DNA of 64,000 nt, from assembly GCA_028283765.1 (NCBI GenBank), contig JAPWJY010000008.1, forward strand, positions 1,183,001 to 1,247,000, written 5' to 3'. Of this stretch, positions 29,116 to 40,697 are shown piece after piece. The notes below the pieces were generated by a model. The model saw only the letters and a list, made by a program, of their open reading frames with translations. It was not told the DNA's origin and ran no database searches. The stretch's first letter is position 1. Each line of letters begins with the position of its first letter. Origin of the DNA: Parvibaculaceae bacterium. GTDB lineage: Bacteria; Pseudomonadota; Alphaproteobacteria; Parvibaculales; Parvibaculaceae. The position numbers and the translations under genes are program-made.

Positions 29116-29940
29116 ATGACGTCAGACATGCAGGCCAGCGGGAGCGGACAGACCATCGAAACGAGAGGTGCTGTCATGCCCGAAGCGTTGCGGGTCAGCG
29201 GCATCTGGAAGCAGTTCGGTGGCCACGAGGTGCTCAAGGGCATTTCGCTCAAGGCCTGCGAGCATGATGTCATCGCGATACTGGGCTCCAGCGGCTCGGG
29301 CAAAAGCACCTTGCTCCGCTGCATCAATTTCCTCGAAATGCCGGATGCGGGCGAGGTGAGCGTTCAGGGTGAACTCATCAGGATGAGCAACCGGAACGGC
29401 TATCATCCCGAGGATCCCAAGCAACTCCAGCGTATCCGCCAGAAACTCTCGATGGTTTTCCAGCAGTTCAACCTGTGGAGCCACATGACGGTGCTGCAAA
29501 ATATCATCGAGGCGCCGATCCATGTGCTGAAGATCGACAGGAAAACCGCGATCGCCCGCGCCGAAAAGGTGCTCGACCGGGTGGGCCTGCTCGACAAGTG
29601 CCACAATTATCCATCCCAGCTTTCCGGCGGCCAGCAGCAGCGCGTCGCCATCGCCCGCGCGCTGGCGATGGAGCCCGCCGTGATGCTGTTCGATGAGCCG
29701 ACTTCCGCGCTCGACCCCGAGCTTGTCGGCGAAGTGCTCAAGGTCATGCAAAGTCTCGCGACCGAAGGAAGGACCATGCTTGTGGTCACGCACGAAATGA
29801 GTTTTGCGCGTGATGTTGCAAGCCGGATCATTTTCCTTCATCAGGGTCTGGTGGAGGAGGAGGGGACCCCGGACGAGATTTTCGGGGCGCCCAAATCGCC
29901 GCGGCTTCAACAATTTTTAACCCGTTTCGACCGGCATTAA
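29116..29940 (+). CDS. hisP: Basic amino acid ABC transporter, ATP-binding protein (HisP-like)
   Basis: 274 residues, or 254 if started at the ATG at 29176 ([20 protein letters not shown]), which matches family N-termini better; both have plausible ribosome-binding sites. Walker [13 protein letters not shown]-loop [15 protein letters not shown], signature [19 protein letters not shown], Walker [16 protein letters not shown] and H-loop VVTHEMSF are intact. The similarity to HisP/OccP/AotP is close across the whole length. It drives import of a basic amino acid with the next three genes in one operon. Confidence 0.93.
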
Positions 29941-29970
29941 GGCCGTTGAACCGGCAACAAGGGGAAGACC

Positions 29971-30750
29971 ATGCGTAAACTGATGATGAGCATTGTGGTG
30001 GCTGCCGCAGCGCTGGTGGGCTCTCAGGCGAACGCGGCGGGTGTCATTCGTATCGGCACGGAAGCTGCCTACGCGCCGTTTGAATACAAGGACGATACGG
30101 GCCAGCTCAAGGGCATGGAAATCGATCTCGCCAAGGTCTATTGCGAACGCATCAAGGCCAAGTGCGAGTTCGTCAATATGGATTTCGACAGTCTTATCCC
30201 GGCGCTGAAGGCCGGCAAGATCGATGCGATCATTTCGCAGATGTCGATCACGGCCGAGCGTGCCAAGACGGTGGACTTCACCCACCTCGTGACCATCGCC
30301 CCGACCCAGTTCGTAGCCAAGGCGGGATCGGGCATCGATGGCACCAAGCCTGAAACCTTCAAGGGCAAGACCATCGGCGTGCAGAGCGGCACGACGCATG
30401 AAACCTACGTGAACCAGAAGCTGAAGGATCAGGTGACGGTCAAGGTCTATCAGGGCCTCGACGACGCATGGCTCGATCTTGAAGCGGGCCGCGTGGACAT
30501 CGTGTTCGCCGACGCCACCATCGACTATGACTGGCTCGACAAGACCGGCAAGGCCAAGGGCTTTGAGCTTGCAGGCGCACAGATCAACGATGCCGAAATC
30601 TTCGGCGAAGGCACCGGCATGGCCGTGCGCAAGGGCGATAGCAAGCTGCTGGGCGAGTTCAACAAGGTCATTGACGAGACCAACAAGGACGGCACCTTCA
30701 AGAAGATCAACGACAAGTACTTCCCGTTCAACATCGGGCCGAAGGCCTGA
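29971..30750 (+). CDS. Periplasmic amino acid-binding protein (HisJ/ArgT-like)
   Basis: 259 residues with a signal peptide (MRKLMMSIVVAAAALVGSQANA). The mature protein starts GVIRIGTEAAYAPFEYKDDT and contains GMEIDLAKVYCERIKAKCEF, the first-lobe ligand loop IISQMSITAERAKTVDFT and VGVQSGTTHE-like KTIGVQSGTTHETYV, all typical of solute-binding family 3. The pair of Cys in CERIKAKC matches the disulfide of lysine/arginine/ornithine/histidine binders. It delivers the ligand to the HisQM-type permease. Confidence 0.92.
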   Translation: MRKLMMSIVVAAAALVGSQANAAGVIRIGTEAAYAPFEYKDDTGQLKGMEIDLAKVYCERIKAKCEFVNMDFDSLIPALKAGKIDAIISQMSITAERAKTVDFTHLVTIAPTQFVAKAGSGIDGTKPETFKGKTIGVQSGTTHETYVNQKLKDQVTVKVYQGLDDAWLDLEAGRVDIVFADATIDYDWLDKTGKAKGFELAGAQINDAEIFGEGTGMAVRKGDSKLLGEFNKVIDETNKDGTFKKINDKYFPFNIGPKA

Positions 30751-30757
30751 TCTTGCT

Positions 30758-30786
30758 GTCACCCCCGGCTTGATGCCGGGGGTGAC
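30758..30786 (+). repeat. Perfect 12-bp intercistronic hairpin (REP-like)
   Basis: GTCACCCCCGGC / GCCGGGGGTGAC (30758-30769, 30775-30786) with loop TTGAT between the binding-protein and permease genes. Its position matches the stabilising hairpins that raise binding-protein expression over permease in such operons. It may be one copy of a dispersed palindrome. Confidence 0.7.
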
Positions 30787-30818
30787 GCCTTGAGGCCGGG
30801 GAGGGGCGGGGAGCAAGT

Positions 30819-31493
30819 TTGTTTGATCTGCACGGATATGGTGAGCAGCTTTTTCTGGGCGTGATCGTCACCCTTGAGCTTGCCTTCGTATCGCTTTTTT
30901 TCGGTGTTCTGTTCGGCATTCTGGGCGCTTCCGCCAAGCTCTCGTCTGCGCGCGCCCTTTCCGTCCCCGTCAGCATCTTCACCAATCTGATGCGTGGCGT
31001 GCCCGAGTTCGTCATCATCCTCGTCAGTTATTTCGGATTGACCAATCTGCTCACGAGCATCGTGGGGAGCTATGTCGAGATCGATCCGTTCGTGGCGGGT
31101 GTTTTCGCGCTGTCGCTGGTATTCTCCTCCTACGCCTCCGAGAATTTTCGCGGTGCGTTTCTTGCCGTGCCCAAGGGGCAACTGGAGGCGGCGCGCGCCT
31201 ATGGCATGAACCGGTCGCAGATTTTCCTGCGGATACATTTGCCGCAGGCCTGGCGTTTCGCTCTGCCGAGCCTCAATAACCAGTGGCAGTCGCTGCTCAA
31301 GGATACCTCGCTCATTTCCGTCATCGGGCTGGAGGATCTGATGCGCAAGGCGATGATTGCCTCGCAGGTGACGAAGAACCCCTTCACGTTCTATGTCGCC
31401 ACCGCCGTGGTTTATTTTGTTTTGCTGGCCATTTCGGTACCGCTGTTCCGCGCGCTGGAAAAGCGGGCGAACCGCGGCGTAAGGAGGAACTGA
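30819..31493 (+). CDS. hisQ: Basic amino acid ABC transporter permease (HisQ-like)
   Basis: 224 residues starting with TTG at 30819 (MFDLHGYGEQLFLGVIVTLE); GGGGAG lies six bases upstream and no ATG/GTG fits the family start. It has about five membrane helices and the EAA loop as EAARAYGMNRSQIFLRIHLP (about 125-144), which docks onto the ATPase. It forms the membrane channel with HisM. The rare TTG start after a strong hairpin suggests that permease output is kept low. Confidence 0.9.
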   Translation: MFDLHGYGEQLFLGVIVTLELAFVSLFFGVLFGILGASAKLSSARALSVPVSIFTNLMRGVPEFVIILVSYFGLTNLLTSIVGSYVEIDPFVAGVFALSLVFSSYASENFRGAFLAVPKGQLEAARAYGMNRSQIFLRIHLPQAWRFALPSLNNQWQSLLKDTSLISVIGLEDLMRKAMIASQVTKNPFTFYVATAVVYFVLLAISVPLFRALEKRANRGVRRN

Positions 31494-31497
31494 GCCC

Positions 31498-32196
31498 ATG
31501 TTCTCCTGGATGACGGATTACAGCGATCTGGTCACCGATAACTGGCAGGGCTATGCCGACGGTTTGTGGATTACTGTCCAGCTGATGGTGATTTCGACCG
31601 TCGCGGGTTTTCTGCTTGCGATACCGCTGGCGCTGGCGCGGGTTTCGTCAACGCCGTTCTTCGCCTGGCCGGCGTTCGCCTACAGCGCGGCTTTCCGGGG
31701 CACGCCGCTGCTGGTGCAGATTTTTCTCTTCTATTATGGGCTGCCGCAATTCGATGCGGTGCGGGACTCGATCTTCTGGCCGTTCCTGCGCGATGCGGTG
31801 CCTTGCGCCCTCGTGGTGCTGAGCTTCAATCTCGCGGCCTATTTCGCCGAGGTTCTGCGCGGCGGCATCATGGCCGTGCCGGAGGGCGAGAAGGAGGCGG
31901 CCCGCTCGCTCGGCATGACGCCCGCGCTTACCTATCGCCGGATCATCATGCCGCGCGCCATCGGCATCATGCTGCCCTCGCTCTCCAACGAGGTGGTGCA
32001 GCAGCTCAAGGGAACGGCGCTCGTTTCCACTATCACCGTCCTCGACATGACCGGCGTCGCCCGGCGTCTGACGGCCCAGAGCTACACCAGCGAACCGCTG
32101 ATCCTGGCGGGTATTCTTTACATCATCCTGACCTATCTGGTTTCCCGCCTTTTCAAGATTTTTGAGCGCCACCTGAACGCCTACCAGATCCGCTGA
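31498..32196 (+). CDS. hisM: Basic amino acid ABC transporter permease (HisM-like)
   Basis: 232 residues, five or so membrane helices, first at ADGLWITVQLMVISTVAGFLLAI. The EAA loop is KEAARSLGMTPALTYRRIIMPRAIG (about 138-162). Its pairing with HisQ and the order ATPase-binder-Q-M define a complete polar amino acid importer. AAGGAGG before the ATG overlaps the end of hisQ. Confidence 0.92.
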   Translation: MFSWMTDYSDLVTDNWQGYADGLWITVQLMVISTVAGFLLAIPLALARVSSTPFFAWPAFAYSAAFRGTPLLVQIFLFYYGLPQFDAVRDSIFWPFLRDAVPCALVVLSFNLAAYFAEVLRGGIMAVPEGEKEAARSLGMTPALTYRRIIMPRAIGIMLPSLSNEVVQQLKGTALVSTITVLDMTGVARRLTAQSYTSEPLILAGILYIILTYLVSRLFKIFERHLNAYQIR

Positions 32197-32317: not shown

Positions 32318-33817
32318 ATGACCGGACAGGTGATCGGGCTTACCGCCTTTGGCGGCTACATTCCCCGCCTGCGCCTGCAGCGCAAGGCGGTGACCACGGC
32401 GAACGCATGGGTTGCTCCCAATCTTGCCGGCAAGGGCAAGGGCGAGCGTTCCATGGCGAACTGGGACGAGGACGCGATCACCATGGCGGTGGCCGCCGCC
32501 CGCGATCTGCTGGGTACGGACGATGACCGCTCGCATGTGGACGCGCTGCTGTTCGGCTCGACCACCATGCCGTTCCGCGACCGGCTCAACGCGGGCATCA
32601 TTGCCGCCGCCCTGACGCTCGACCAGAAGGTGCGGGCCGTCGATGTGGCGTCGACCCAGCGCGCGGGCACATCGGCCCTGTTGCAGGCCCTGTCGCTGGT
32701 GAAGGCGGGCGAGGCGAAGAACGCGCTCGTCGTCGCTTCGGACCATCGCAAGACCCGGGCGGTGAGCCCCCAGGAGCTTGAGTTCGGTGATGGCGCGGCG
32801 GCGGTCAGCGTCGGCACCGAAAACGTGATTGCCCGCTATCTGGGCGGCGCCAGCCTCACCATCGATTTCGTCGATCATTTTCGGGGCGACACGGAGGAGT
32901 TCGACTATAGCTGGGAAGAGCGCTGGATCCGCGACGAGGGCTATTCGAAGATCGTGCCCCGGGCCGTCAAGGAAGCGCTGGACAATGCCGGCGTGGCGGC
33001 GGGCGACATCAGCCATTTCGTCCTGCCCACAACGTTCGGCACCAAGTTCGCCGAGCAGCTCGCCAAACGTTCCGGCATCTCGCCTGAAGCGGCGCGCGAC
33101 ACACTTGCCGCCAATTGCGGCGAAACCGGCGCGGCGCATTCGCTGGTGATGCTGGTGCATACGCTCCAGACGGTGGCGAAGCCCGGCGACAAGATCATGG
33201 TGCTGCATTTCGGCGGCGGCTGCGACGCACTCATTTTCGAGGCGACGGACAAGCTCTCCAATCCGGCGGGCGTGCGCGGCATCGTCGGTGCGCTGGCGGA
33301 CCGGCAGGAAGAAACGAACTATATGAAGTTCCTGACCTTCAACGGCCTTGTTGAATGGGAACGCGGCATGCGCGCCGAGCAGGACAAGAAGACGGCTCTC
33401 ACCACGCTCTATCGCAACGAAGACATGCTGATGGGTCTTGTCGGCGGGCGCTGCACGGAAACCGGCGTGATCCAGTTTCCGCGCTCGCGTATTTCCGTCA
33501 ATCCCAACAACCACACGGTCGATACCCAGGAGCCCTACAAGTTTGCCGAGAAGAAGGCGAAGATACTGTCATGGTCGGCCGACTATCTGTCCTTCTCCAT
33601 GAACCCGCCCAACCATTACGGCATGGTGGTGTTCGAGGAAGGCGGACGCATCATGATGGACTTTACCGACCTCAATCTGGGGGAAGTCGAGAGCGGCATG
33701 GAGGTGAAGCTCGTTTTCCGCATCAAGGAATTCGACGAGAAGCGCGGCTTCCGCCGCTATTTCTGGAAGGCCGTGCCGGTTGCAACCGCGCAGGCAAAGG
33801 CACAGGCCGCGGAATAA
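32318..33817 (+). CDS. HMG-CoA-synthase-like / DUF35 OB-fold fusion protein
   Basis: 499 residues. Residues 1-345 have the thiolase-superfamily fold of HMG-CoA synthase and KAS III: LTAFGGYIPRLRL at the start, FGDGAAAVSVGTEN (about 156-169), ANCGETGAAHSLVMLVHTLQ (265-284) and MVLHFGGGCDALIFEA (294-309). Where the catalytic Cys is expected (C-x-G/A-G-T), the protein has Gln114 in STQRAGT. The His region (usually HQP) reads HFVLPTTFG, so that His also appears lost. Residues about 370-490 form a DUF35 OB-fold with GGRCTETGVIQFPRS, retaining one of four Cys of the usual zinc ribbon. Thiolase plus HMGCS plus DUF35 form one complex in archaea; here two are fused and the thiolase follows 29 bp later. 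Substrate unknown. GGGGAAACG precedes ATG 32318. Confidence 0.85.
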   Translation: MTGQVIGLTAFGGYIPRLRLQRKAVTTANAWVAPNLAGKGKGERSMANWDEDAITMAVAAARDLLGTDDDRSHVDALLFGSTTMPFRDRLNAGIIAAALTLDQKVRAVDVASTQRAGTSALLQALSLVKAGEAKNALVVASDHRKTRAVSPQELEFGDGAAAVSVGTENVIARYLGGASLTIDFVDHFRGDTEEFDYSWEERWIRDEGYSKIVPRAVKEALDNAGVAAGDISHFVLPTTFGTKFAEQLAKRSGISPEAARDTLAANCGETGAAHSLVMLVHTLQTVAKPGDKIMVLHFGGGCDALIFEATDKLSNPAGVRGIVGALADRQEETNYMKFLTFNGLVEWERGMRAEQDKKTALTTLYRNEDMLMGLVGGRCTETGVIQFPRSRISVNPNNHTVDTQEPYKFAEKKAKILSWSADYLSFSMNPPNHYGMVVFEEGGRIMMDFTDLNLGEVESGMEVKLVFRIKEFDEKRGFRRYFWKAVPVATAQAKAQAAE

Positions 33818-33846
33818 GCGGATCATGACATCAGGGAGACACTGAA

Positions 33847-35049
33847 ATGGCTGCTGGTATCAAGGACAAGGTTGCAATTCTCGGCATGGGCTGCTCGAAA
33901 TTCGGCGAGCGCTGGGACGCCGATCCCGAAACATTGATGGTCGAGGCCTATCTGGAGGCGATGCAGGACGCAGGCATCGAGCCGACGCAGATCGACGCGG
34001 CCTGGTTCTCCACTCATATTGATGAAACCGGCACGGGCAAGGGCGGCACGCCCATGTCGCTGGCGCTGCGCCTGCCCAACATCGCGGTGACGCGGGTGGA
34101 GAATTTCTGCGCGGGCGGCTCGGAAGCACTGCGCGGCGCGGTCTATGCGGTGGCCTCGGGCGCTGCCGACATCGCCATCGCGCTCGGCGTCGAAAAGCTG
34201 AAGGATACGGGCTATGGCGGGCTTCCGGTCGGCAACGCCGGCACGCTCATTCCGCAATGGGCGCCTTCAGGCTCGGCCCCCGGCAATTTCGCGCAACTGG
34301 CGTCGGCCTATCGCGCCAAGCATGGCGTATCGCGCGAGGACCTCAAGCGCGCCATCGCCCATGTGTCGGTGAAAAGCCACGCCAATGGCGCGAAGAATCC
34401 CAAGGCGCACCTGCGCAACGTCGTCACCGAAGAGCAGGTGATGAACGCGCCGATGATCGCCGAGCCGCTGGGCCTGTTCGATTGCTGCGGCGTTTCGGAC
34501 GGGGCGGCCTGCGCCATCGTGACCACGCCGGAAATCGCCCGTTCGCTCGGCAAGAAGGACATCGTGACCGTGAAGGCGATGCAGCTTGCCGTCTCGAACG
34601 GGCTGGAAAGCCAGCATAATTCGTGGGACGGCAGCTATTTCCACACAGCCCGCATTGCGGCGCGCAAGGCCTATGCCGAGGCCGGCATCGCCGACCCCCG
34701 CAACGAGGTCAGCATGATGGAGGTGCATGACTGCTTCTCCATCACCGAACTCGTGACCATGGAAGATCTGTTCATCTCGCCGGAAGGCACGGCCGTGAAG
34801 GATGTGATGGACGGCTTCTACGATGCGGACGGCAAGGTGCCGTGCCAGATCGACGGCGGCCTGAAATGCTTCGGCCATCCCATCGGCGCGAGCGGGCTGC
34901 GCATGGCCTATGAAATGTATCTCCAGCTTCAGGGCCGGGCGGGCGAGCGCCAGCTCGGCAACCCCAGGATCGGGCTGACCCACAATCTGGGCGGCGCGCC
35001 GTCGCAGAACGTGTGCTCGGTCACCATCATCGGCGCGCACGACGCCTGA
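33847..35049 (+). CDS. Thiolase (SCP-x/DUF35-associated type)
   Basis: 400 residues. Thiolase catalytic elements are present: the nucleophilic Cys in VTRVENFCAGGSEALRGAVY (about residue 90), VHDCFSITELV (about 297-307) and the terminal CFGHPIGASGLRMAYE (about 339-354) with the His/Cys pair. It belongs to the non-classical branch (SCP-x-like, archaeal acetoacetyl-CoA thiolase-like) that works with a DUF35 partner rather than to the PhaA/AtoB branch. It follows the HMGCS-like/DUF35 fusion by 29 bp and surely shares its mRNA. GGGAGACACTGAA lies upstream. The likely reaction is condensation or cleavage of an acyl-CoA; direction and substrate are unknown. Confidence 0.86.
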   Translation: MAAGIKDKVAILGMGCSKFGERWDADPETLMVEAYLEAMQDAGIEPTQIDAAWFSTHIDETGTGKGGTPMSLALRLPNIAVTRVENFCAGGSEALRGAVYAVASGAADIAIALGVEKLKDTGYGGLPVGNAGTLIPQWAPSGSAPGNFAQLASAYRAKHGVSREDLKRAIAHVSVKSHANGAKNPKAHLRNVVTEEQVMNAPMIAEPLGLFDCCGVSDGAACAIVTTPEIARSLGKKDIVTVKAMQLAVSNGLESQHNSWDGSYFHTARIAARKAYAEAGIADPRNEVSMMEVHDCFSITELVTMEDLFISPEGTAVKDVMDGFYDADGKVPCQIDGGLKCFGHPIGASGLRMAYEMYLQLQGRAGERQLGNPRIGLTHNLGGAPSQNVCSVTIIGAHDA

Positions 35050-35149: not shown

Positions 35150-36634
35150 ATGCTTTTCAACGATCCCGTTTTTTTATTCGCATTCCTGCCGGTCTCGCTG
35201 ATCGCGTCCTATGCCGCGCGCGCGCTGTTCGGGCGGGAAGGGGCACTCGCCACGCTGGTGCTGGCCTCGATCATCTTTTATGGCTGGTGGAATCCGGTCT
35301 ATCTGCCGTTGCTCGGCGGACTCGCGGTTTTCAACTTCGTGCTGGCGCGCTTCATCGTGAAGGAGCGGGGCAAGGCGGCGGAGGGGTTGGCGACGGCGCT
35401 CACCATATTCGGCGTGACGGTCGATCTGGGCGCGCTCGCCTGGTTCAAATATACCGACTTCTTCATTGGCACCATGAATGCCGCCATAGGCACCTCATGG
35501 ACCTTGCTGCATATCGTGCTGCCGCTCGGCATTTCCTTTTTCACCTTCCAGAAGATCGCCTATCTGGTCGATGCGCGCCGCGGCGAGGTGGAGCCGCACA
35601 GCTTTCTCGAATACTGCTTCTTCGTGATGTTCTTTCCGCAGCTGATCGCGGGACCGATCGTCCATCACAAGGAAATCTTCAGCCAGACGCATGAGAAGAA
35701 CGCTTTCCGCTTCGATCTTTCCAATATCAGCGTCGGCCTGACGATATTTCTGATCGGCCTCTTCAAGAAGGTCGTGATCGCGGACAATCTCGCACCGATT
35801 GTGAGCCATGCTTTCGGGGCGGCCGCCGGGCCTGAGCCGATGGGTTTTCTTCTCGCCTGGCAGGGCATGGCCGCCTACACGCTTCAGCTTTATTTCGATT
35901 TCTCCGGCTATTCGGACATGGCCATCGGCGCGTCGCGCATGTTCGGCATCCGGCTGCCGCTCAATTTCGACTCGCCCTACCAGTCGGCCAGCATCATTGA
36001 GTTCTGGCGGCGCTGGCACATGACGCTCTCGCGGTTTCTGCGCGACTATCTCTATATCGGTCTCGGCGGCAACCGGCATGGCCGCGTCCGGCGCTATTTC
36101 AACCTGATGGCGACCATGACGCTCGGCGGCCTCTGGCATGGCGCTGCCTGGACCTTCGTGATCTGGGGTTTTCTCCATGGTCTGGCGCTGATCGTCAATC
36201 ATGCCTGGCGGGCGGTTTTCCCCCGGCGCATCGGCGCATGGTGGTCGCTGGCGATGGCAAGGCTGATAACACTGCTGTTCGTTGCTTTGGCCTGGGTGCC
36301 GTTCCGCGCGCCGGGCCTTGAGGCGGCGGGACATTTGCTGAAAGGGCTCGTCACCCTGCCGGGTGCCGGGGAATGGAGGCAGATGCCCTTTGCGCTGCTG
36401 GCGCTCATTGTCGCTGTGGCCGGGCTCTGGCTGGTGCCGAACACGCAGCAATGGCTGGCGAACTACCGGCCCGCCTATAATTACGGGCCGCAGGAACATG
36501 AGAAGGATAAACCACTGCTGATAAAGAACCTCTGGTCGCCGGGAACCCGGCAGGCCGTGCTGGTTGGCCTGTTCGCGGCGCTGAGCTTCCTCAGCCTGCA
36601 ACGGGTCAGCGAATTCCTCTATTTCCAGTTTTGA
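35150..36634 (+). CDS. MBOAT family O-acyltransferase (AlgI-like)
   Basis: 494 residues with about ten or more membrane helices. It begins MLFNDPVFLFAFLPVSLIAS, has FFTFQKIAYLVDARRGEVEP and FFPQLIAGPIVHHKEIF, the FWRRWHMTLSRFLRDYLYI block (about 285-303) and the catalytic-His region TLGGLWHGAAWTFVIWGFLHG (about 324-344). These are the hallmarks of AlgI/PatA-type transferases that pass acyl groups across the inner membrane. The next gene encodes an AlgJ-like exported partner. No alginate or cellulose genes are near, so the acceptor (a polysaccharide, peptidoglycan or other envelope glycan) is unknown. Confidence 0.9.
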   Translation: MLFNDPVFLFAFLPVSLIASYAARALFGREGALATLVLASIIFYGWWNPVYLPLLGGLAVFNFVLARFIVKERGKAAEGLATALTIFGVTVDLGALAWFKYTDFFIGTMNAAIGTSWTLLHIVLPLGISFFTFQKIAYLVDARRGEVEPHSFLEYCFFVMFFPQLIAGPIVHHKEIFSQTHEKNAFRFDLSNISVGLTIFLIGLFKKVVIADNLAPIVSHAFGAAAGPEPMGFLLAWQGMAAYTLQLYFDFSGYSDMAIGASRMFGIRLPLNFDSPYQSASIIEFWRRWHMTLSRFLRDYLYIGLGGNRHGRVRRYFNLMATMTLGGLWHGAAWTFVIWGFLHGLALIVNHAWRAVFPRRIGAWWSLAMARLITLLFVALAWVPFRAPGLEAAGHLLKGLVTLPGAGEWRQMPFALLALIVAVAGLWLVPNTQQWLANYRPAYNYGPQEHEKDKPLLIKNLWSPGTRQAVLVGLFAALSFLSLQRVSEFLYFQF

Positions 36635-36641
36635 GTGATCC

Positions 36642-37664
36642 ATGAACCGTTCGTTTACCGCATATCTGACGGTCATGGTCGCCACCATCATGCTGGTCTG
36701 CGCCTTTGTTTTTGGCGTCAACTGGCTGGTGGACCCGCTCTGGTATCATGGCGGCAACCGGCTTACCGGCGAGAATTTCCGCTTCGATGAGCGCGCGCAG
36801 AAGATCAACGCCCTGCTGCCGAACAAGGATGCCTATGACTGCATCATCTTCGGCAGCTCGCGCACCGTGGTTCTGCCTGCGAGCGCCATTCCGGGACATC
36901 GCTGCTTCAATCTGGCTTTTTCCGCCGGCACGATGGAGGAGTTCGTGCCTTACGCGGCCTATCTGAAATCCATCGGCATGGACCCGAAAATCATCATTGT
37001 CGGGGTCGATGATTTCCAGTTCTACAAGGGGGATGCGGAAATGACCGTCCCCTCTTTCATCACGCAGAAAAAGCCGCCCCGTTCGGTCTGGCTGAGCTAC
37101 CTGACGCTGGATGCGTTCGGCATGTCGCTCCATGCGCTCAGGGGCGCTTCGGGCGATGAATGGATCATCGGGCGGAATCTGGAAGTCTCGCGGCTTCAGC
37201 TCAACAGCTATGATCCTCAGACAGATAAATCAGGTCTTGTCCCCGCCCAATCCTATAATGCCGGACGCAGCGCGGATTATGCCAAAATCCGGGCTCTTTT
37301 CCCGGCGGCGCAGATGGTCGGCTATGTGCCGCCGCTCTCGGCATGGCGCATCGCCAACATGCGCAAGGCGCGCGCGCTCGACGCCTATCTCGATATCATC
37401 ACGCAGGCCGCGCAGCATTTCGACCGGTTCAACGATTTCGGCGTGCCCTCGGAAATAACGGCCGATCCCGCCAACAGCTATGACGGCTCGCATTATTCCC
37501 CCGCCATCAACCGCGCCATCGCCGCCGTTCTGATCGGTGGCGATGCTTCGCCCGCGCTTGATCTCAAGCGCCTGTCCCGCGAAGAGGTAACGGCGGCCTA
37601 TCTCGCCGCCCTGGAGAAATATCAGGACCGGCTGGCGCTTACCGGCTCTCCTGCCATTCCTTGA
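36642..37664 (+). CDS. Exported SGNH-like protein, AlgJ/AlgX-type acyltransferase partner
   Basis: 340 residues with a membrane anchor or uncleaved signal (MVATIMLVCAFVFGVNWLV). SGNH-like elements are visible as CIIFGSSRTVVLPAS (about 66-80, GSSR with the nucleophile Ser) and NSYDGSHYSPAINRAI near residue 280 (Asp and His of the triad). The pattern fits periplasmic acetyltransferases that receive acyl groups from an MBOAT partner. It starts 7 bp after that gene. Its 3' end overlaps the convergent DUF6285 gene by 26 bp. Confidence 0.75.
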   Translation: MNRSFTAYLTVMVATIMLVCAFVFGVNWLVDPLWYHGGNRLTGENFRFDERAQKINALLPNKDAYDCIIFGSSRTVVLPASAIPGHRCFNLAFSAGTMEEFVPYAAYLKSIGMDPKIIIVGVDDFQFYKGDAEMTVPSFITQKKPPRSVWLSYLTLDAFGMSLHALRGASGDEWIIGRNLEVSRLQLNSYDPQTDKSGLVPAQSYNAGRSADYAKIRALFPAAQMVGYVPPLSAWRIANMRKARALDAYLDIITQAAQHFDRFNDFGVPSEITADPANSYDGSHYSPAINRAIAAVLIGGDASPALDLKRLSREEVTAAYLAALEKYQDRLALTGSPAIP

Positions 37665-38025
37665 GGGCGCGGCGATAGCCTGAATAGTTGGGCTGGTCGA
37701 TGGCAAGCTTGGTCAGCGTCGTCGCCCAGAGATGTTCGCCGAGCGCTGTCGTTTCCAGCGTCAGTTCGCCGGTTTCGATCTTGCCGCAGAGCTCCCGGTT
37801 CAGTTCTTCAAGCGCGCCGTCATGGCCGAGCAGGGCGGCGAGGCGTTCGCGTTCCTGCATCTCGGCGGCAGGGGCTACTTCCAGCTCCCGTTTGATGATG
37901 TCGAGCGCGTTGGCGGCGACCCGGGCGTGAAAGGCCGTATGGCCCTGCAATTGCGGCATGGCGTGTTCGCGGATGAAATTCGCGACGGCCTCGACAAGTT
38001 CGATCGCGGAGGGTTTGTCCTGCAT
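37639..38025 (-). CDS. DUF6285 domain protein
   Basis: 128 residues, predicted all-helical and soluble: PSAIELVEAVANFIREHAMPQ at the start, HARVAANALDIIKRELEVAP in the middle and LGEHLWATTLTKLAIDQPNY near the end. This matches the small DUF6285 family, which is commonly found directly beside a phosphotransferase of the acyl-CoA dehydrogenase-associated type, as here (11 bp gap). Function is unknown. Its 3' end overlaps the converging AlgJ-like gene. Confidence 0.8.
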   Translation of the reverse strand: MQDKPSAIELVEAVANFIREHAMPQLQGHTAFHARVAANALDIIKRELEVAPAAEMQERERLAALLGHDGALEELNRELCGKIETGELTLETTALGEHLWATTLTKLAIDQPNYSGYRRALKEWQESR

Positions 38026-38036
38026 GGTTCTGATCC

Positions 38037-39032
38037 TTATCCGCGCGGCGCGAGCAGGCGCAACAGGTCGATTTCGGTTTCCGAGGAGCGCCGTCCGATG
38101 GTGGCCCGCTCGACGGAGCCATCGTGCCGGAAGCCCTCATACATGCTGGTGCACATCACACCCCATTTGAGCGAACCGAGCACCTCCCAGAATTTCACCC
38201 GGGCCGGATCGACCTTGCCGCCTCCCGCCGCTTCATAGGCCGCGAACATGTCTTCGCGCTTGCCGAAACCGCCCACCGGATTGTCGATATTGCCGAAACG
38301 CCAGGAATTGACGCAGATCCAGCCCAGATCCTCCATCGGGTCGCCGAGATGGGCCAGTTCCCAGTCCAGCACCGCGCGCACGCCCTCCGGCCCGATCATC
38401 AGGTTGCCGTGACGGAAATCGCCGTGCACCAGCGTAAGCTCCGTGTTCTGCGGGGCGTTGTCGCGCAGCCAGCGGAAGGCAAGCTCGAACACCGGGTGCG
38501 GATGGCCGTGGGTCTTGTAGGTGTGCCAGTACTGCTCGACCTCGCTCGCGCCCGGCGATACGCGCAGTTCCGGCAGGGACGCCCGGTCGATATTGTGGAG
38601 GCGGGCGAGGATTTCACCGCATTGGGCGGCCATGATGGGACGGGCACTGGCGAATTCATCGTCACGCAGAATTTTGCGGGCGATGGTTTCGCCCTCGACC
38701 CGGCCCATGATGAAGCCATGGCCGAGATCGTCGCCCGGCTGGAGAACATGGCGCACCGGCGGCACGGGCACCCCGGCTTTTTCCGCGAGCCCGATCAGGA
38801 TGGCCTCGGTTTCGAGCATGACGGCGGTGTCGCGTTTGCTGCTTTCCCCGCCCGGCGCGCGGCGCAGGATGAGCGGTATTTCGCCGCTCTCGGTTGTCGC
38901 CGAGAAGGCCCACGTTTCCTGGCTGGCGCCCCCGGAAAGACGTTTCAGTCCCGTGGCGCCCGTGGCGTCCGCGATATGAGCTCGCGCCACGTCCGCGAGT
39001 TGCGAAGCGATGTTTTCAGATCCTGCGGCCAT
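38037..39032 (-). CDS. Phosphotransferase (APH-fold, acyl-CoA dehydrogenase-associated type)
   Basis: 331 residues from the ATG at 39032, which has AAGAGG just upstream; an ATG at 39050 is an alternative. Kinase-fold motifs: RLSGGASQETWAF (phosphate-binding loop, about 35-47), LILRRAPGG (ATP Lys/Arg), the catalytic LVHGDFRHGNLMIG (about 201-214) and metal-binding VLDWELAHLGDPMEDLGW (about 220-237). Homologues act with acyl-CoA dehydrogenases (ACAD10/11-like) and probably phosphorylate a hydroxyacyl-CoA. Substrate here is unproved. It is co-transcribed with DUF6285. Confidence 0.87.
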   Translation of the reverse strand: MAAGSENIASQLADVARAHIADATGATGLKRLSGGASQETWAFSATTESGEIPLILRRAPGGESSKRDTAVMLETEAILIGLAEKAGVPVPPVRHVLQPGDDLGHGFIMGRVEGETIARKILRDDEFASARPIMAAQCGEILARLHNIDRASLPELRVSPGASEVEQYWHTYKTHGHPHPVFELAFRWLRDNAPQNTELTLVHGDFRHGNLMIGPEGVRAVLDWELAHLGDPMEDLGWICVNSWRFGNIDNPVGGFGKREDMFAAYEAAGGGKVDPARVKFWEVLGSLKWGVMCTSMYEGFRHDGSVERATIGRRSSETEIDLLRLLAPRG

Positions 39033-39154
39033 GTCCTCTTCTTCCCACACATCAGCAGCGCCGTTACCCGGCTTCTTGGGCTCCTTTGTGGCATGAACTG
39101 CGGGCCAAGATAAGACTTTCGTATGGATTTTGAAGCATTGGCTATCGGGGCCTT

Positions 39155-39207: not shown

Positions 39208-39819
39208 TCAGCGTACCGGGAAATTATGATAGGTGTCGGGGAAGGGTTCGCCCTTCAGCGTGAAGTGCCACCATTCCTCGGGGATATTGGCAAAGCCGTG
39301 TTTTCCCATCAGCGCGAGCAGCCATTGCCGGTGCGCGGCGGCCTCGGGCGATATGGTGTCATGCGCTGTGTGCGAGCGAGGGTCGAAGAGATCGAAGGGC
39401 GTGCCGAAGTCGAGTTCGTGACCTTGCGCATCGATGATGGTGAGATCAACCGTGCTGCCCCGGCTGTGGCTGGAGCGCCGGGCGAGATAGCCAAGATCGA
39501 ACAGGTCGCGCTTGTCCAGATTTGGGTAATAGTCCGCCTTGGCGATCTGGTCGTCGGCATCCTGCGACCAGCGGATGAATTCATCCACGGCGCATTGCGG
39601 GCGGTAGCCGTCGAAAATCTTCAGCCGCCGGTTTTGCCGCGCCGCCTCCGCCTGCACGCCCTTCAGCGCCTCGGCGGCCTCAAGGGTCACGATGCAGACA
39701 GGGGCTTCATAGCCCGGCACCGGACGGCCCAGAAAATTGTCCGGGCCGTGATAGCGGATGTCGAGGACAAGGCCCGGCACATGGGCGTCGAGATAGACAA
39801 AACCGGAAGGAAGACCCAC
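39208..39819 (-). CDS. D-Ala-D-Ala dipeptidase (VanX/DdpX-like)
   Basis: 203 residues from a GTG at 39819 (MGLPSGFVYLDAHVPGLVLD); AGGAG lies seven bases upstream and the start is 11 bp after the preceding gene's stop. Zinc-peptidase motifs of family M15D are complete: SSHSRGSTVDLTII (His and Asp ligands, about 109-122) and IPEEWWHFTL (catalytic Glu and third His ligand, about 182-191), plus FDGYRPQCAVDEFIRW with the catalytic Arg. No signal peptide is seen, so it should be cytoplasmic and recycle D-Ala-D-Ala, as DdpX does; no vanHA-like genes are near, so a resistance role is unlikely. Confidence 0.87.
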   Translation of the reverse strand: MGLPSGFVYLDAHVPGLVLDIRYHGPDNFLGRPVPGYEAPVCIVTLEAAEALKGVQAEAARQNRRLKIFDGYRPQCAVDEFIRWSQDADDQIAKADYYPNLDKRDLFDLGYLARRSSHSRGSTVDLTIIDAQGHELDFGTPFDLFDPRSHTAHDTISPEAAAHRQWLLALMGKHGFANIPEEWWHFTLKGEPFPDTYHNFPVR

Positions 39820-39830
39820 GTTCCCGCTCC

Positions 39831-40697
39831 TCAATCGAGCCTGTATCCAAGGCGGCCGGCCAGATCCTGCATGAACTGCCAGGCGACTCGGCCCGACCGC
39901 GCGCCCCGGGTCGTTGCCCATTCCACAGCCTGTGCGCGCAGCTCGTCAGGATCGATCTTGATGCCATAGAAAGACACATAACCGTCGATCATGTCGAGAT
40001 AGTCCGCCTGGCTGCAATTGTGGAAGCCGAGCCACAGGCCGAAGCGATCCGAGAGCGACACCTTTTCCTCCACGGCCTCGGACGGGTTGATGGCCGTCGA
40101 GCGCTCGTTGTCGAGCATGTCGCGGGGCAGCAGGTGGCGGCGGTTGGAGGTGGCATAGAACAGCACATTGGCCGGGCGGCCCTCGATGCCGCCGTCGAGC
40201 ACGGCCTTGAGGGACTTGTAGCTGGTGTCGTCGTGGTCGAACGAAAGGTCGTCGCAGAAGATGATGACCCGGCGGCCCTGACCGCGAAGCTGGCCCATCA
40301 GGCGGGGCAGGCTCTCGATTTCCTCGCGGTGGATTTCGATGAGCACGAGGCTGTGCGGCTCTCTCAGATTGATGTCGGCGTGGGCGGCCTTGACCAGCGA
40401 GCTTTTGCCCATGCCGCGGGCGCCCCAGAGCAGGGTGTTGTTGGCGGGCAGGCCGCTGGCGAAGCGGCGGGTATTGTCGAGGAGAATGTCACGGACGTGA
40501 TCGACGCCCTTCAGCAGGGAAAGATCGACCCGCGAGACGTCCGGCACCGGCTCAAGCCGGTCCTCCGCGCCGTTCCAGACAAAGGCGTCCGCGCTGTCGA
40601 GCGAGGCGGGGGCAGGGCGGGCAGGCGCGAGCCGTTCCAGCGCGTCCGCGACCCGGCGCAGCGCTGCCAGCTTCTTTTCCTTGTATGGCTTACTCAT
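39831..40697 (-). CDS. DUF815-family AAA ATPase
   Basis: 288 residues from the ATG at 40697 (MSKPYKEKKLAALRRVADAL), with GGGAG eight bases upstream; longer starts are rejected for lack of family similarity. Walker A is LLWGARGMGKSSLVKA (about 98-113), Walker B is VIIFCDDLSFD (about 150-160), and FYATSNRRHLLPRD gives the sensor region. The C-terminal RSGRVAWQFMQDLAGR is also conserved. DUF815 proteins are widespread in proteobacteria and their role is unknown. It is transcribed with the VanX-type gene. Confidence 0.88.
   Translation of the reverse strand: MSKPYKEKKLAALRRVADALERLAPARPAPASLDSADAFVWNGAEDRLEPVPDVSRVDLSLLKGVDHVRDILLDNTRRFASGLPANNTLLWGARGMGKSSLVKAAHADINLREPHSLVLIEIHREEIESLPRLMGQLRGQGRRVIIFCDDLSFDHDDTSYKSLKAVLDGGIEGRPANVLFYATSNRRHLLPRDMLDNERSTAINPSEAVEEKVSLSDRFGLWLGFHNCSQADYLDMIDGYVSFYGIKIDPDELRAQAVEWATTRGARSGRVAWQFMQDLAGRLGYRLD

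Follow-up and report, generated by a model that had tools for sequence, protein, structure and literature searches.

In the monoacetylphloroglucinol acyltransferase PhlABC (PpATase; 5M3K, 5MG5, 9SKH), the key Cys and Glu are missing from the HMGCS-like subunit PhlA, PhlB serves as a DUF35 adaptor, and the chemistry is performed by the thiolase-like PhlC, which uses Cys88 and a His and is the only subunit whose residues contact the substrate (PMC6392133). Active enzyme needs the co-expression of all three subunits, and the authors of that study regard PhlA and PhlB as required for functional assembly (PMC6392133). In the archaeal acetoacetyl-CoA thiolase/HMGCS/DUF35 complex (6ESQ, 6ET9), the three domains are encoded together, the thiolase carries its Cys and an HDCF motif, the HMGCS is active and belongs to the mevalonate pathway, and CoA is bound where all three proteins meet (6esq, as described in PMC6392133). 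The benzoylsuccinyl-CoA thiolase BbsAB (7PXP) is a catabolic thiolase with a DUF35 partner, and in the steroid aldolases Ltp2-ChsH2 and Sal-Shy a thiolase-fold enzyme is docked to a DUF35 domain fused to another pathway protein; Sal has a Gly instead of the thiolase nucleophile and is hence incapable of thiolysis (PMC12329534), catalyzing retro-aldol cleavage. The peroxisomal SCP2-thiolases (SCPx) have a nucleophilic Cys, a GHP motif, and HDCF in place of NEAF, the HDCF being thought to provide the second catalytic Cys (PMC7682436).

The gene pair described here lies in a 64-kb window (the whole stretch of DNA that was analysed) and encodes an HMGCS-like/DUF35 fusion followed by a thiolase. 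Its HMGCS-like part, as in PhlA, lacks the catalytic Cys and Glu and is accompanied by a DUF35 part; unlike in PhlABC, the equivalents of PhlA and PhlB form one chain, the thiolase has HDCF, and homologues are surrounded by beta-oxidation clusters rather than lying in a phloroglucinol operon. The archaeal complex shares with this locus the joint encoding of the three domains and the thiolase Cys and HDCF, whereas here the HMGCS part appears to be dead and the genome gave no match to HMG-CoA reductase. BbsAB differs in that no HMGCS-like part has been described for it and BbsB reads HDAF, Sal differs in its Gly (Cys88 is invariant here), and the SCP2-thiolases differ in that the present thiolase has an HMGCS-DUF35 partner instead of an SCP2 domain. 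None of the papers searched describes such an HMGCS-DUF35 fusion.

The locus and the pairing of its genes

Both genes are on the forward strand, and their positions, their lengths of 499 and 400 residues, and the 29 bp between them are all as a first-pass annotation of this DNA had given them. The features are as follows.

32318..33817 (stop included), + strand: fusion protein, 499 aa, with a putative HMGCS/KAS III-like pseudoenzyme domain (approximately residues 1–330) and a DUF35/ChsH2_C domain (approximately residues 374–487)
32318..33307, + strand: HMGCS/KAS III-like part, residues 1–330 (Pfam ACP_syn_III and ACP_syn_III_C; AF2 model match to 6esq_J)
32657..32659, + strand: Gln114, at the position of the HMGCS/FabH nucleophilic Cys (alignment)
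33026..33028, + strand: Pro237, at the position of the catalytic His (alignment)
33122..33124, + strand: Glu269, at the position of the FabH catalytic Asn (alignment with the organism's own FabH)
33437..33517, + strand: degenerate zinc ribbon, residues 374–400, with Cys379 as its sole remaining Cys (zf-ChsH2 below cut-off; alignment)
33545..33721, + strand: OB fold, PF01796 OB_ChsH2_C, residues 410–468 (Pfam, over cut-off)
33847..35049, + strand: SCP2-type thiolase, 400 aa, PRK06157 equivalog
34108..34110, + strand: thiolase nucleophile Cys88 (invariant, 109/109)
34726..34737, + strand: thiolase HDCF motif, residues 294–297, including Cys296 (109/109)
34876..34878, + strand: thiolase His344 of the GHP motif (109/109)

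The host genome is 3.24 Mb, and the nearest named homologues are those of Parvibaculum. A search for repeats around the locus returned chance-like pairs only. The first-pass annotation had remarked that no mevalonate genes are nearby, which is right and extends to the whole genome, where HMG-CoA reductase has no match; a mevalonate role for the pair was rejected on this ground.

Among 289 sampled alphaproteobacterial genomes, the fusion and the thiolase were found in an identical set of 51; a 52nd fusion match is weak (337 aa, 29% identity) and stops before the DUF35 part. The thiolase lies downstream on the same strand in 55 of 56 fusion-type matches, so that all three parts of a thiolase/HMGCS/DUF35 complex are encoded together, and 48 of these 55 pairs are no more than 150 bp apart. 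Where a genome has two fusions, it also has two pairs, and two genomes each have one additional thiolase without a listed fusion partner. Because the same 51 genomes carry both genes and most pairs are so closely spaced, the pairing is not a matter of chance; it is nearly obligate. Pairwise distances of the fusion and the thiolase are correlated (r = 0.92), as shared ancestry alone would also make them, and the thiolase changes more slowly, at approximately 0.58 times the fusion's rate. Measured against this pair, homologues average 80% identity in the thiolase, 66% in the DUF35 part, and 56% in the HMGCS part. The slower thiolase and the correlated distances fit the pairing of a catalytic subunit with a dead one.

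Loss and retention of catalytic residues

The 499-aa protein scores over the Pfam cut-offs for ACP_syn_III, ACP_syn_III_C, and OB_ChsH2_C and below all cut-offs for HMGCS and FabH. Among solved structures, its best relatives by sequence are the PhlA proteins together with the HMGCS from the archaeal thiolase complex. An AF2 model (mean pLDDT 79; good to approximately residue 340 and poor across much of the DUF35 part) predicts an HMGCS fold whose best matches, in effect tied, are 6esq_J (Z 42.3, rmsd 2.6, 333 residues aligned) and PhlA (9skh_A, Z 41.6). The FabH C112Q structures 9ka5 and 9ka6 also appear among the structural matches; our literature search found no decarboxylation test for them.

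Alignment with the archaeal HMGCS (6esq) places Gln114 at the catalytic Cys, Thr82 at Glu82, and Pro237 at the His, and alignment with the organism's own FabH replaces the Cys-His-Asn triad by Gln114, Pro237, and Glu269. Across 126 aligned sequences, which extend to betaproteobacteria, gammaproteobacteria, and Actinobacteria and down to approximately 30% identity, Gln occupies position 114 in 96 and Leu in 20, and Cys never appears there (Leu, Met, and other residues together replace Gln in approximately 29); Pro is found at position 237 in 117, and Glu or Asp at position 269 in 109. Thr82 is invariant in one of the alignments of homologues. The first-pass annotation had thus been correct in putting Gln114 at the HMGCS/KAS III nucleophile position and in reading the active His region as LPTT, the motif that contains Pro237. 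The objection it had foreseen, that this protein might be a lone variant among homologues with ordinary residues, fails because Cys is absent from position 114 throughout the family, and a lone mutant or a pseudogene is ruled out, both ORFs being intact and the residue loss common to homologues. Since position 114 is never Cys and the His and Asn have given way to Pro and to Glu or Asp, the entire condensing machinery appears to be gone: the fusion has neither the nucleophilic Cys and catalytic Glu and His of HMG-CoA synthase nor the Cys-His-Asn triad of KAS III (FabH). To judge from these residues the HMGCS-like domain is a dead enzyme (a pseudoenzyme), and its inactivation goes beyond the loss of the Cys alone.

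In the DUF35 part, the OB fold is present (PF01796 over cut-off), and the four-Cys zinc ribbon has kept one Cys of four, as had been noted before; the remaining Cys379 is retained in 124 of the 126 sequences, while the complete ribbon is found in 51. Presence and absence of the ribbon require four changes on the tree, where this fusion falls in a supported clade whose 43 rows are all without it; the loss belongs for the most part to one large alphaproteobacterial clade. It might weaken, in this clade, the docking known from relatives.

The 400-aa protein scores over the Pfam cut-offs for Thiolase_N, Thiolase_C, and Thiolase_C_1 and matches PRK06157 with 716.7 bits (NCBIfam cut-off 403). Aligned with the SCP2-thiolase 6hsj, it shows the nucleophilic Cys, the HDCF, and the GHP His of an SCP2-type thiolase; HDCF occurs in both 6hsj and 6esq, and Cys88, HDCF (294–297), and His344 are invariant in all 109 thiolase sequences. 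The first-pass annotation had credited the thiolase with a retained Cys, His, and Cys; Cys88, His344, and the existence of a second Cys stand, but the second Cys expected there is Cys296, not the C-terminal Cys390, which is found in 81 of 109 sequences. By its catalytic residues, then, this is an intact thiolase, and since Cys88, HDCF, and His344 are kept, thiolase chemistry would be the natural expectation.

Proposed role and alternatives

On annotated plasmids, the pair is found amid SDRs, acyl-CoA dehydrogenases, acyl-CoA ligases, CoA transferases, and either enoyl-CoA hydratases or MaoC proteins; in some cases Rieske dioxygenases are near as well. Pfam scans of 92 flanking proteins at 15 further loci, some of which are the same plasmids, returned 14 SDRs, 11 acyl-CoA dehydrogenases, 10 enoyl-CoA hydratases, 5 MaoC proteins, and 2 MFE-2 hydratase-2 proteins (raw counts, with no background sample); an SDR together with an MFE-2-type hydratase is reminiscent of peroxisomal beta-oxidation, the setting of the SCP2-thiolases. 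Because beta-oxidation enzymes are its neighbours elsewhere, the pair points to the last step of beta-oxidation, though neighbours by themselves cannot separate thiolysis from condensation. Within the 64-kb window no beta-oxidation genes adjoin the pair, which has an ABC transporter upstream and an MBOAT gene downstream. As a separate observation, plasmid p3 of Novosphingobium sp. ES2-1 carries a divergent pair beside a lipid-transfer protein and a separate OB-fold protein, a FadD3-type ligase, and a P450, placing two DUF35-thiolase systems together in one catabolic island.

We suggest that the pair is likely to be a beta-oxidation thiolase working within a thiolase/HMGCS/DUF35 complex, in which the HMGCS-like part is a pseudoenzyme, as PhlA is in PhlABC. 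The two proteins, we infer, form one complex of this type. The chemistry would be that of the SCP2-type thiolase, with Cys88 accepting the acyl group, Cys296 of HDCF acting as the acid/base, and His344 completing the site, and the reaction would be the cleavage of a 3-ketoacyl-CoA by CoA. The DUF35 part would connect thiolase and dead domain, the latter acting as a scaffold and helping to wall in the CoA/substrate cavity, in the way suggested for PhlA. The role is probably in beta-oxidation, on acyl-CoAs that are poor substrates for ordinary thiolases, such as those of 4-hydroxy acids or of acids with branches or rings. The first-pass annotation had offered a non-condensing partner and a structural scaffold among its readings, and the data support a partner of the thiolase that does not condense and is probably structural.

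A refinement of this explanation, rather than its opposite, would make the dead domain a second site, for a substrate or an effector, with channelling to the thiolase or regulation of it as its function. Invariant fusion motifs such as DFVDHFR and WEERW-RDEG differ from PhlA, and CoA in the 6esq complex sits at the three-protein interface (PMC6392133), which gives the idea some appeal; the invariant residues may, however, merely build interfaces, and we hold such a site to be possible but on balance doubtful. Operation of the complex in the biosynthetic direction, as a Claisen condensation giving acetoacetyl-CoA or a branched 3-ketoacyl-CoA, is how the archaeal complex works and is what the NCBI name of the thiolase, acetyl-CoA acetyltransferase, implies, but it is improbable here, given a genome with no HMG-CoA reductase match, a partner that, being dead, would be unable to pull the equilibrium, and neighbours elsewhere that look catabolic. 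Still less probable is a PhlABC-like acyltransferase, in which the thiolase subunit would transfer acyl groups to a carbon acceptor other than CoA rather than use CoA for cleavage: PhlA proteins are, by sequence, the solved structures nearest to the fusion and PhlC likewise uses Cys88 and a His, yet the 400-aa protein is far closer to the CoA thiolases (6esq, BbsB, SCP2-thiolase) than to PhlC, its HDCF is kept in every sequence, and the neighbours elsewhere belong to beta-oxidation rather than to polyketide synthesis. Ketosynthases in which a Cys-to-Gln change gives a decarboxylase do exist, and these KSQ-type enzymes retain the His and Asn for decarboxylation. The earlier idea that Gln114 makes the fusion such an acyl-CoA decarboxylase, supplying an enolate to the thiolase, has in its favor the prevalence of that Gln and is scarcely credible, because neither a His/His nor a His/Asn pair is retained alongside it, Pro and Glu or Asp occupying those positions in most homologues, and the Gln itself varies.

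If the preferred reading, a catabolic thiolase with an inactivated partner, is correct, the pair is a clean example of a pseudoenzyme retained for structure. PhlABC might otherwise pass for an antibiotic-biosynthesis oddity; the evidence gathered here suggests a broader picture, with the thiolase/dead-HMGCS/DUF35 plan as a general and probably catabolic design in Proteobacteria and Actinobacteria. The fusion is currently annotated as 3-oxoacyl-ACP synthase III, as an OB-fold protein, or as HMG-CoA synthase, and pathway reconstruction is therefore misled.

The kinase-DUF6285 pair and other nearby genes

An APH-type kinase gene and a DUF6285 gene lie side by side 2.6 kb downstream of the thiolase on the opposite strand.

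37639..38025, - strand: DUF6285 protein, candidate LvaB-like kinase partner and putative member of the unit (conserved neighbour)
38037..39050, - strand: APH-type phosphotransferase, candidate 4-hydroxyacyl-CoA kinase (LvaA-like) and putative member of the unit (conserved neighbour)

This possible 4-hydroxyacyl-CoA kinase and its partner (37639–39050, - strand) are conserved in the vicinity of the thiolase unit across Alphaproteobacteria: among 96 loci, the APH-type kinase is near the pair in 43 and the DUF6285 protein in 35. DUF6285 occurs in 35 of 51 genomes of the class with the pair vs 25 of 238 without it (Fisher p ~5e-17, a value that ignores shared ancestry and serves as a lead only), and in relatives a recG-like gene accompanies the pair just as faithfully as DUF6285 and the kinase do. 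The present genome keeps the block pair-MBOAT-340 aa-DUF6285-kinase, and the outer flanks seen in relatives, glmS-like and recG-like genes (named from sequence reading), are both absent from the window.

Elsewhere, APH and DUF6285 genes adjoin acyl-CoA ligases and acyl-CoA dehydrogenases, the latter for example in Sulfitobacter and Thermus. We take LvaB, the small interacting partner of the APH-type kinase LvaA, to be a DUF6285 protein. LvaA and LvaC phosphorylate 4-hydroxyacyl-CoA and then eliminate the phosphate (PMC11342911, PMC6692424). By analogy, the setting of an APH protein with an acyl-CoA dehydrogenase recalls LvaA and LvaC, and we hypothesize a tie to 4-hydroxyacyl-CoA catabolism. 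More tentatively, the pair may represent a widespread and undescribed class of thiolase complex for unusual acyl-CoAs, in which a fully inactivated HMGCS domain, joined to DUF35, has been retained because it is indispensable as a scaffold or as another site for ligand binding, and which, in Parvibaculum and relatives, works with an LvaAB-like 4-hydroxyacyl-CoA kinase; we consider this broader proposal possible, if less than likely.

Between the thiolase and the kinase-DUF6285 genes, 35150–37664 encodes an MBOAT acyltransferase and a 340-aa protein without a Pfam match, which accompany the pair in several Parvibaculum genomes, at times in swapped order. Immediately upstream of the fusion, 29116–32196 encodes an amino-acid-type ABC transporter (ATPase, binding protein, and two permeases) that is absent from this place in Parvibaculum relatives; as it is not a conserved neighbour in related genomes, its membership of the unit was rejected as far as sampled. 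Beyond the kinase gene, an ORF at 39208–39921 (- strand) resembles, from its sequence alone, a D-Ala-D-Ala dipeptidase (VanX-like).
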